From Opitutia bacterium (GTDB taxonomy: Bacteria > Verrucomicrobiota > Verrucomicrobiia > Opitutales > UBA953): DNA of 43,723 nucleotides. Location: positions 1 to 43,723 of the forward strand of contig CANCHK010000015.1 in assembly GCA_947377865.1 (NCBI GenBank). Reading direction: 5' to 3'. Below, piece by piece: positions 16,807 through 19,336 of the stretch. The position numbers and the translations under genes were made by a program. The stretch's first letter is position 1. Every line of letters begins with the position of its first letter. The notes under the pieces are model-generated. The model was not told where the DNA came from. It made no database searches and saw only the letters and a list, made by a program, of their open reading frames with translations.

Positions 16807-18384
16807 TTAGTTCGGTAACGGCTGGCCGACACCCTTGGCCCTCTGCACCTCGAGCAAGGCCTTGAGCCGCTCGACGATCTCCGGGTGTTCCTTGGCGACA
16901 TTGCTGCGTTCGCCAGGATCGGTCTGCAGGTCGAACAGCCGCGGACCGGACTGGTCGCGACTATCGTTGTCCTGCTCGGATTCGGAACCCAGTAATGCGA
17001 CGATCGGGCCCTGTGCTTTCTTGCCCTTGGCTGGCGCGCCGACACCGGAGATAAACTTCCAGCGTGCGTCGCGAATCGAAAGCTGGTTACCCTGCGTGCT
17101 CGAAATTAGCGTCTCGCGACCGGCGCCACCGCTGAGGGCCGCGGTGGTGTCAACAGAGTCCAACTTAAGGAAGTCGGCGGGGTCGCCACCGGCGACCTTG
17201 GTAAAGACGGCAGGGAGATCGACCTGCGACATCAAGGCGTCGGAGACCTTACCGACAGGAGTATGGCCCGGCCAGCGGGCGATGAAGCCAACACGTGTTC
17301 CTCCTTCCAGGATGCTGTATTTGCCACCACGGAAGGGGCCAGCAGGCGTATGGCCGGCCTGCTTATTCAATTCGACAGCCTTATCCTTATAGCCGTCATC
17401 CAGCACCGGACCATTGTCGGAAGAATAGATGACGAGCGTGTTCTCGGCGAGGCCGTGCTTGTCCAGTTCGGCGAGGATGCGGCCGGCTTGGTCATCGAAA
17501 GCCACCACGGCATCGCCGCGCGGGCCGAGCGGCGTCTTCCCGGCATAGCGTGGATTGTGCACGCGGGGGACGTGGTTCTCGTGCGAAGCGTAGTACAGGA
17601 AGAAGGGCTTATCTTTGTTATGCGCGATGAAGCCGCAGGCCTTGTCGGCGAAGGTATCGCCCATCGTCTCGTCGTTCCAGAGCGCCGACTTGCCGCCCTT
17701 CATCCAGCCGATGCGGCCGACGCCGTTCACGAGCGCCATGTTATGACCATGCGACCAATCCATCTTCAACTTCGCGCGTTCGGCATCGGTGGTCAGATCA
17801 GGGTCGCCCGGGTAAGCCTGCTTGTAGCTGACTTCGATTGGATCTTTGGGGTCGAGGCCCACGACGGAGCCATCCTCGACGAATACTGTCGGCACGCGGT
17901 CGCCGGTGGCGGCCATGATGAAGGAGTAAGTGAAGCCGATCTGGTTGGGCGAAGGGTCGATCTTCTTGTTCCAATCGACGTCGCCGGAGCCGAGGCCGAG
18001 GTGCCACTTACCGACCACGCCCGTGGCATAACCCAGCTTAGCAAGGCTGGCTGCCATCGTCGGACGGCCTGGCTTGATGATGAGACGCGCGTCGCCGGGC
18101 AAGACGCCGGTTCCCTGACGTCGCCAGGCGTATTCCCCGGTCAGGAGGGAGTAGCGGGAAGGTGTGCACGTCGCGGAAGTGCAGTAGCCGGCGGTGAAGC
18201 GGGTGCCCTGTGTGGCCAACTTATCGAGGTTCGGCGTCGGGATGACCTTCGAACCATAGCAGCCGAGATCGCCCCAGCCGATGTCATCGGAGTAGAGCAG
18301 GACGATGTTGGGCGGGCGCTTGTCGGCCGCGAAGACGGAGAAGACGCAAGCAAGGGCAACCAGGGGCAAGAGGCGCATAGCCAT
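16807..18384 (-). CDS. Exported type I (formylglycine) sulfatase
   Basis: The 525-residue protein begins with a signal peptide and carries the sulfatase hallmarks: the metal-binding YSDDIGWGD (Asp33, Asp34), the CTPSR motif at residues 73-77 whose Cys is converted to formylglycine by a maturase, and YSSDNGPV further on. It hydrolyses sulfate esters, most plausibly on sulfated polysaccharides, outside the cytoplasm. Starts at ATG 18384 or 18378 differ by two codons. It heads a minus-strand run with the oxidoreductase and gluconokinase and is divergent from the DapF-family gene. No maturase gene is present in the window. Confidence 0.92.
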   Translation of the reverse strand: MAMRLLPLVALACVFSVFAADKRPPNIVLLYSDDIGWGDLGCYGSKVIPTPNLDKLATQGTRFTAGYCTSATCTPSRYSLLTGEYAWRRQGTGVLPGDARLIIKPGRPTMAASLAKLGYATGVVGKWHLGLGSGDVDWNKKIDPSPNQIGFTYSFIMAATGDRVPTVFVEDGSVVGLDPKDPIEVSYKQAYPGDPDLTTDAERAKLKMDWSHGHNMALVNGVGRIGWMKGGKSALWNDETMGDTFADKACGFIAHNKDKPFFLYYASHENHVPRVHNPRYAGKTPLGPRGDAVVAFDDQAGRILAELDKHGLAENTLVIYSSDNGPVLDDGYKDKAVELNKQAGHTPAGPFRGGKYSILEGGTRVGFIARWPGHTPVGKVSDALMSQVDLPAVFTKVAGGDPADFLKLDSVDTTAALSGGAGRETLISSTQGNQLSIRDARWKFISGVGAPAKGKKAQGPIVALLGSESEQDNDSRDQSGPRLFDLQTDPGERSNVAKEHPEIVERLKALLEVQRAKGVGQPLPN

Positions 18385-18481
18385 CTTCTAGGCCTAGGGC
18401 CGAAGGAAATAAAGCCATGAGATGGGGAGCGGCACCCCTTGCTTGCAAAACCTGCTCATAACGCCCAATCAGAAGGCGAAC

Positions 18482-19336
18482 ATGCGTTTCGCCAAATATC
18501 ACGCCCTCGGCAACGACTACCTCGTCCTCGAGCCCAAGGACTGTCCTACCCTCTTTTCGCCCGAAGCCATCCGCAAGGTCTGCCACCGTCACTTCGGCCT
18601 GGGCTCGGACGGCATCCTGTACGGACCGATTGAACGCACCGACGGCACCTTTGGCCTCCGCATCCTGAACCCGGACGGCTCCGAGGCCGAGAAATCCGGC
18701 AACGGAATCCGTATCTTCTGCCGTCACCTCCTCGAGACCAAGCGCATCAAGGAAGGCCAGGAGTTCCGCCTGCATACCATCGGTGGCATCGTCCGCTGCG
18801 AAGTCTTCGAAGGAGGCAACCGCATCCGCGTCGAGATGGGCAAGGTCTCCTTCCGCGCACCGGTCATCCCTCACGTCGGTGCTGACCGCGAAGTCCTGGG
18901 CGAAGAGATTACCGTCCTCGGCAAGACCTTCAAGTATTGGGCCGCCACCGTCGGCAACCCGCACTGCGTCATTCCGGTAGACGACCTCACGCCTGATCTC
19001 GCCAAGACCTACGGACCGCACCTTGAGGTGCATCCGAATTTCCCGAACCGCACCAATGTGCAGTTCATGAAAATCATCGACCGCAAGAACGTGCGGATTG
19101 AGATCTGGGAACGCGGCGCGGGCTACACGATGGCCTCCGGGTCCTCCTCTTCGGCTTCGGCTGCCGTGGCCCGTAAAATGGGCCTAGTTGACGCAGATTT
19201 GACGGTAAATATGCCTGGAGGTCAGATTATCATTGGCATCGGCGATGACTATTCCATCGTGATGACAGGCCCGACGACCCCCGTAGGCATCTTCGAGATG
19301 CACCCAGGAGTCCCGGTCCAAGACGTCGCCGTCTAA
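18482..19336 (+). CDS. dapF: DapF-family epimerase with Ser/Ser in place of the catalytic Cys pair
   Basis: The 284-residue product has the full diaminopimelate epimerase layout: YHALGNDYLVL at the start, GLGSDGIL, the NPDGSE motif, and the two active-site loops. In characterised DapF both loops carry a catalytic cysteine (CGNG and ACGTG in E. coli and Haemophilus). Here they read KSGNG with Ser at residue 72 (codon TCC, 18695-18697) and ASGSS with Ser at residue 219 (codon TCC, 19136-19138). A Cys four residues after the first loop (IFCRH) is not in the catalytic position. The fold call is firm; LL-to-meso-DAP epimerase activity is doubtful from these residues. The ATG at 18482 matches the family start better than the 20-residue extension upstream. 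Confidence 0.85.
   Translation: MRFAKYHALGNDYLVLEPKDCPTLFSPEAIRKVCHRHFGLGSDGILYGPIERTDGTFGLRILNPDGSEAEKSGNGIRIFCRHLLETKRIKEGQEFRLHTIGGIVRCEVFEGGNRIRVEMGKVSFRAPVIPHVGADREVLGEEITVLGKTFKYWAATVGNPHCVIPVDDLTPDLAKTYGPHLEVHPNFPNRTNVQFMKIIDRKNVRIEIWERGAGYTMASGSSSSASAAVARKMGLVDADLTVNMPGGQIIIGIGDDYSIVMTGPTTPVGIFEMHPGVPVQDVAV

Follow-up and report, generated by a model that had tools for sequence, protein, structure and literature searches.

A DapF-family gene in a 43,723-nucleotide stretch of DNA from an Opitutia bacterium (contig CANCHK010000015.1; this whole stretch is called the window) encodes serine at both positions where characterised DapF carries a catalytic cysteine. DapF is a standard example of an enzyme in which a weak thiolate deprotonates a very weak carbon acid. 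Judged from sequence and gene content, the Ser/Ser protein probably acts as an LL-/meso-diaminopimelate (DAP) epimerase in vivo, and we lean, less firmly, towards acid/base chemistry carried out by the serine pair itself.

A DapF-family gene with serine at both catalytic positions

The window protein was assigned to the DapF family on profile scores, predicted fold and DAP-contact residues. The counts at codons 72 and 219 below come from representatives clustered at 80% identity, 49 of them Ser/Ser and 58 Cys/Cys; the groups are themselves defined by these two residues.

18482..19336, + strand: Ser/Ser DapF-family gene, 284 aa (TIGR00652 and PF01678 scores; AF2 model; PDB match 9mro)
18695..18697, + strand: codon 72, TCC, Ser replacing the first catalytic Cys (K-S-G-N-G); Ser in 49/49 versus Cys in 58/58 representatives
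19136..19138, + strand: codon 219, TCC, Ser replacing the second catalytic Cys (A-S-G-S-S); Ser in 49/49 versus Cys in 58/58 representatives

An alternative in-frame ATG is located at 18422; homologue alignments begin at 18482. The protein scored 225.3 bits with the TIGR00652 DapF profile (cut-off 114.65) and 171.6 bits with PF01678 (cut-off 34.7), and TIGR00652 was matched by 29/29 rows of A1 (E<=0.001). A Pfam scan with E up to 1 returned PF01678 alone, and PF05544, which we take to be the proline racemase family, was not matched. With Ser72 and Ser219 the protein falls outside the two-cysteine DAP epimerases, which have Cys at both catalytic positions. Membership of the bifunctional DapF/MurI class was rejected as well, the score with the bifunctional DapF/glutamate racemase model NF038284 being 60.7 bits against a cut-off of 350.

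The replacement of both catalytic cysteines by serine, each encoded by TCC, had been described in an earlier note on this DNA and was confirmed at residues 72 and 219. A sequencing error at these codons, which by the note would refute its reading, was excluded because the relatives' loci are also Ser/Ser: among 106 tabulated loci (L001-L003 represent the window gene, L106 is a stub of 96 bases and some loci are duplicates), 105 cover both sites and 105/105 are Ser/Ser. Serine was kept in all 50 close-relative loci, where four alternative Ser codons are in use at either site. In the Ser/Ser set, codon counts were AGC 30, TCC 11, TCG 5, AGT 2 and TCT 1 at site 72, and TCG 20, TCC 16, TCA 7 and AGC 6 at site 219, so that both Ser codon blocks are present at both sites. 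A decayed copy or pseudogene was rejected on the basis of the serines kept in relatives and a low dN/dS of 0.04-0.21 over 10 comparisons, 9 of them distinct (L004 and L065 encode identical proteins). The window gene is under strong purifying selection. An open frame of 249 codons runs antisense to dapF at window positions 18284-19033 (-) and is probably a by-product of high G+C.

Predicted structure and residues around the active site

The AF2 model of the window protein had a mean pLDDT of 94.7 and a pTM of 0.90. The closest solved structure found with Foldseek was 9mro, Anabaena DapF, at TM 0.90, and TM values against 9mro, 4ijz and 1gqz were 0.81-0.90 (normalised by query). The best 26 Foldseek matches were DapF entries, some of them RppH complexes, or O-ureidoserine racemase, and included the DapF mutants C73S (2q9h) and C217S (2q9j); the proline racemase superfamily structures 4lb0 and 4k7g were also among the matches. 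In the model, Ser72 is placed just ahead of helix 73-85 and Ser219 just ahead of helix 220-232, and in Anabaena DapF the catalytic cysteines are described as lying at the N-terminal ends of the corresponding helices (PMC12039745).

DAP contacts were taken from the account of Anabaena DapF in PMC12039745 and transferred by alignment. The equivalents of Anabaena N13, N66, N164, N197, E215 and R216 were present in 49/49 Ser/Ser representatives, E215 and R216 being reported to hold the far end of DAP (PMC12039745). G73, N74 and G220 were likewise kept in 49/49, and N159 was better kept in the Ser/Ser set than among the sampled Cys/Cys sequences (31/58). Residues kept in both groups and residues that differ between them are found at the following codons.

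18692..18694, + strand: codon 71, Lys, adjoining Ser72, subfamily-specific; Lys 46/49 (Thr 2, Val 1) versus Met 57/58
19100..19102, + strand: codon 207, Glu, subfamily-specific; Glu 44/49 versus Arg 58/58
19109..19114, + strand: codons 210-211, Glu-Arg, equivalents of Anabaena E215/R216; 49/49 and 58/58
19124..19126, + strand: codon 215, Tyr, subfamily-specific; Tyr 43/49 versus Glu 55/58
19145..19147, + strand: codon 222, Ser, at +3 from Ser219, subfamily-specific; Ser 48/49 versus Gly 58/58

Residue 78 is Ile in 49/49 Ser/Ser representatives versus Cys in 57/58 Cys/Cys representatives, and residue 221 is Ser in 47/49 versus Thr in 58/58. Position 75 is Gly in both groups, and Ser72 is thus without a +3 partner like Ser222. 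A set of residues around the DAP contacts has thus switched together in the Ser/Ser subfamily. The proposal in the earlier note of a different amino-acid substrate or a non-epimerase role was not borne out, as the DAP-contact side chains are kept in 49/49 and the gene content fits DAP epimerisation.

Phylogeny and distribution of the Ser/Ser form

In a quick tree of 109 rows, a single branch (SH-aLRT 99) set the 49 Ser/Ser representatives apart from the other rows. A careful tree was computed from 100 of these rows (nine were dropped to suit the method) after removal of 13 subfamily-specific columns and gave the same split with bootstrap 100 and SH-aLRT 99, the split being present in 100% of 200 bootstrap trees. 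The trees are unrooted, and long branches lead to E. coli, L206 and L210. The Ser/Ser DapFs form one well-supported clade with Ser/Ser in every member read, and the separate subfamily suspected from the window gene alone stands even without the 13 columns.

Among 186 distinct DapF sequences (from 225 loci with a protein read, two short ones dropped), 114 were Ser/Ser, 71 Cys/Cys, one Gly/Cys (L208) and none Ser/Cys; because a Ser/Ser query was used to collect the sample by similarity, these counts are not natural frequencies. The tally was the same when limited to residues 15-255, and 21 Ser/Ser and 19 Cys/Cys loci were read in addition. L208 (G295 C70) is a second DapF homologue with Gly at 72 and Cys at 219, one catalytic residue being lost, and genome G295 also carries the Ser/Ser copy L207 beside it.

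A draw of 286 genomes from the class gave a DapF match in 263. Sixty genomes were Ser/Ser, all of them read, and 47 others that were read were all Cys/Cys; low identity to the query implies that the remaining 156/263 are Cys/Cys too. No genome of this draw held two separate DapF genes (E<=0.001). Ser/Ser DapF of genus g15 (L221 and L222, in G108 and G198) gave two and three protein-search matches; the extra pieces are one gene in each genome, and the split matches may point to an insertion. The window's order contributed 52 genomes, of which 44 were Ser/Ser, five had no match and three were Cys/Cys. The latter belong to genus g26, include one single-contig genome and lie inside the window's own order, for which reason Ser/Ser and Cys/Cys appear to replace each other.

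The earlier note had asked whether the Ser/Ser pair extends across phyla, and it does. Wider Ser/Ser loci are titled Desulfobacterales, Ignavibacteriae, Trueperaceae, Chitinivibrionia and one Microgenomates bin, and Opitutaceae-titled bins (L084, L085, L087, L102) are Ser/Ser as well. A phylum draw around a Desulfobacteraceae bin gave matches at >50% identity in 6/297 genomes and a draw around the Chitinivibrionia bin gave matches at at least 45% in 4/150; all six and all four are Ser/Ser (10/10 in the two outside draws). The Trueperaceae bins G293 and G294 (L099, L104, L105) both have a Ser/Ser DapF, with two copies in G293. Occurrence in other phyla is patchy, and we infer that this spread arose by horizontal transfer.

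Gene content and gene neighbourhood

A PF01678 search of the window's genome (G000, 75.7% complete) returned only the window protein. Eight single-contig genomes had exactly one PF01678 protein, which was Ser/Ser (G024, G081, G085, G093, G117, G137, G226, G231). A second, Cys/Cys DapF that might cover for the Ser/Ser form was thus found neither in G000, at its 75.7% completeness, nor in the eight single-contig relatives, and this candidate was rejected. Plant-type DapL was over cut-off in 8/8 of these single-contig genomes, LysA in 7/8 (G085 reached 294.5 versus 297.9 bits), and MurE with a DNPR motif was found in 8/8. DNPR, presumably the signature of DAP-type MurE, was seen in 30/30 MurE loci examined, the window's genome included; MurE is also present in G293 and G294, outside these 30 loci, and no MurE over cut-off was found in G292. 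DNPR is not known to separate users of LL-DAP from users of meso-DAP, so that the lysine branch through LysA carries part of the argument. G000 has no DapL over cut-off, and two congeners at 99% completeness (G098, G251) have DapL. No DapL of either type was over cut-off in the Ser/Ser genomes G293, G294 and G295.

Ddh yields meso-DAP directly and is a known bypass of DapF. It was over cut-off in two of the eight single-contig genomes (G024, G093) and below cut-off or absent in six. As a general bypass in Ser/Ser genomes it was rejected, since only 3/60 Ser/Ser genomes of the class draw (G024, G069, G093) were over cut-off. The earlier note had reasoned that, if this were the only DapF, lysine and peptidoglycan precursors must be made by another route or by an unexpected chemistry. 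The premise held for G000 and the eight relatives; Ddh as an alternative route is below cut-off or absent in six of the eight, which makes unexpected chemistry the likelier branch.

Eight genomes of a 33-genome panel lack DapF. Six of them (G150, G183, G256, G281, G087, G105) have Ddh, with both DapL types below cut-off; G150, G183 and G256 are a second, DapF-less genus of the window's own family. The other two (G236 and G030, 97% and 95% complete) have DapL and neither DapF nor Ddh over cut-off, which reflects either a gap in the assembly or a third way of making meso-DAP and leaves room for another epimerase. Among 247 class genomes (>=90% complete, <=5% contaminated), Ddh was found in 6/10 DapF-less versus 18/237 DapF-bearing genomes (Fisher p 7e-5, kinship ignored; three of the six are one genus, and the PF01678 recheck covered all of the ten but G016 and G209). 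Both DapL types were below cut-off in these six. It appears that Ser/Ser DapF, Cys/Cys DapF and Ddh can take each other's place. Both DapF forms occur in G286, where the Cys/Cys copy is on a contig with lysA and dapL and the Ser/Ser copy is elsewhere, and in G291 and G292; in these three genomes the Ser/Ser copy could therefore do something else.

In the Ignavibacteria loci L095 and L096, dapL ends 25 bases upstream of the Ser/Ser ORF, and 67 and 64 bases, respectively, before the aligned start of the Ser/Ser gene; these dapL genes scored 646.5 and 645.5 bits with NF004937 (cut-off 585). Except in L095/L096, no lysine genes were recognised among the scanned neighbours, Opitutales and Desulfobacterales included. 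Neighbours in the window include a sulfatase, a GFO/IDH/MocA oxidoreductase, an SNF2-type helicase and TatC, and in the Desulfobacteraceae locus L090 the Ser/Ser gene is followed by two MoeA-like genes.

Proposed function and mechanism

In Cys-type DapF one thiolate is described to take the alpha proton and the second thiol to deliver a proton to the other face, and a lowered thiol pKa is attributed to helix N-termini and backbone amides (PMC12039745). In the Ser/Ser protein two serines, each just ahead of a helix N-terminus, would replace the thiol/thiolate pair as two-face acid and base. The helix N-termini would help Ser72 and Ser219 to move the proton, and Ser222 at +3 could assist Ser219, comparable to the catalytic Ser90 that is held by Asn93 at +3 in a natural Ser-type enzyme of the proline racemase superfamily (PMC4113996). 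Lys71, Glu207 and Tyr215 would then be a swapped tuning set around the serine pair. Conversion of LL-DAP to meso-DAP by the Ser/Ser protein in the cell is thus our reading of the data, and Ser72 and Ser219 are taken, with less assurance, as the proton-moving groups.

The epimerase role is argued for by the retention of every DAP-contacting residue, by the low dN/dS, by dapL adjoining the gene in L095/L096 and by its position as sole DapF in eight genomes that carry DAP-type MurE, DapL and a LysA-like protein, of which six lack Ddh over cut-off. Epimerisation by a native Ser/Cys pair is known from the proline racemase superfamily, where one such enzyme acts on 4-hydroxyproline (PMC4113996). The detection of DAP in Opitutus terrae and Lacunisphaera also supports this role: Opitutae were once described as being without DAP, and GC/MS data reported in PMC5303756 gave 3-7 nmol per mg in O. 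terrae and three Lacunisphaera strains versus 63 in E. coli. DapF was named by the same authors in one Lacunisphaera strain (PMC5303756; accession WP_069963382). Counting against the role are the DAP content, about ten times lower than in E. coli, and thin-layer chromatography in which no DL-DAP was reported for the three Lacunisphaera strains, a source in which DAP stereochemistry is not settled (PMC5303756). Cys-to-Ser mutants of HisR, a two-cysteine relative with a changed substrate, were greatly reduced (PMC11602996), and Chlamydia DapF Cys-to-Ala mutants lost complementation of a D-Glu auxotroph (PMC5885031). The genomes with both forms (G286, G291, G292), those with DapL only (G236, G030) or without DapL (G293-G295), Ddh beside Ser/Ser in G024, G069 and G093, and the restriction of lysine-gene neighbours to L095/L096 count in the same direction.

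It is unlikely, although it survives best among the alternatives, that the reaction has changed, to another amino acid or to a one-base elimination, and that LL-DAP is epimerised by some unrecognised enzyme. Within the proline racemase superfamily, an enzyme with a Ser/Thr pair dehydrates 3-hydroxyproline (PMC4113996), the DapF-like HisR has switched substrate (PMC11602996), and G236 and G030 do without DapF and Ddh over cut-off. Supply of D-Glu by Ser/Ser DapF is thinkable, since DapF has been proposed as D-Glu source in relatives without MurI (PMC5885031) and no MurI match was found in nine panel Ser/Ser genomes (G098, G024, G085, G117, G231, G122, G226, G198, G300). This pattern is not clean: MurI is also missing from some DapF-less panel genomes, is over cut-off in the DapF-less G150, G183 and G256, and is represented in G000 and G251 by a MurI-like segment of a longer frame that stays below cut-off. 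A changed reaction is opposed by the fully kept DAP contacts, the dapL-dapF adjacency in Ignavibacteria, the apparent interchangeability of Ser/Ser, Cys/Cys and Ddh across the class, and the low score with the bifunctional model.

Less probable still is a true DAP epimerase whose proton movers are not the two serines, with for example Lys71 or a bound water acting on one face. Lys71 stands beside Ser72 in 46/49 representatives where 57/58 sampled Cys enzymes have Met, and the Anabaena paper notes no basic residue near the catalytic cysteines (PMC12039745); however, both serines are fixed in every Ser/Ser row, whereas three representatives have Thr or Val in place of Lys71, and by homology and the helix boundaries of the model the serines are predicted to flank the substrate site. 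A catalytically dead protein kept for a structural or regulatory role is very improbable: both canonical catalytic residues are lost and RppH-DapF complexes are known from PDB titles (E. coli DapF binds RppH), but the whole DAP pocket is kept under strong purifying selection and the protein is the sole DapF of genomes whose gene content indicates that DAP and lysine are still made.

On balance, then, the Ser/Ser DapF would be a natural epimerase free of thiol and cofactor, in which two Ser hydroxyls, tuned by the co-fixed Lys71, Ser222, Glu207 and Tyr215, deprotonate an unactivated alpha-carbon, and most of a bacterial order would obtain its meso-DAP mainly from this enzyme. A Ser/Ser clade on which its bacteria apparently rely suggests that cysteine is not needed for this chemistry. 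If this is true, a clade that does the job of DapF with serines would show the thiol to be dispensable and would offer a natural comparison for active-site tuning. DapF is an antibacterial target that is attacked via its cysteines (PMC12039745), and enzymes beyond the reach of thiol-directed inhibitors and oxidants would be predicted. In Corynebacterium DapF the two Cys are reported to form a disulfide that inactivates the enzyme (PMC5296763), a shut-off to which a Ser/Ser enzyme would be immune. The result also bears on how peptidoglycan is made in Opitutae, given their earlier description (PMC5303756).

Comparison with known systems

No paper describing a natural Ser/Ser DapF was recognised among those listed in searches of open-access literature. 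With two-cysteine DapF (TIGR00652, PF01678; 9mro, 4ijz, 1gqz) the window protein shares the fold, profile score, DAP contacts and place in the pathway; compared to sampled Cys/Cys DapF, both catalytic Cys are Ser and the changes M71K, C78I, R207E, E215Y, T221S and G222S are added. The Ser members of the proline racemase superfamily have a related fold, use a native Ser as acid/base group on one face (PMC4113996) and have a +3 residue that positions their Ser, as Ser222 lies at +3 here. Unlike the window protein, they pair one Ser with Cys or Thr and act on prolines. Laboratory Cys-to-Ser mutants of DapF (2q9h, 2q9j) and HisR (9CR1, 9CR6) also have Ser at one catalytic position, but these are single, engineered changes, impaired in the case of HisR, whereas the Ser/Ser pair described here is double, natural and accompanied by further fixed changes.
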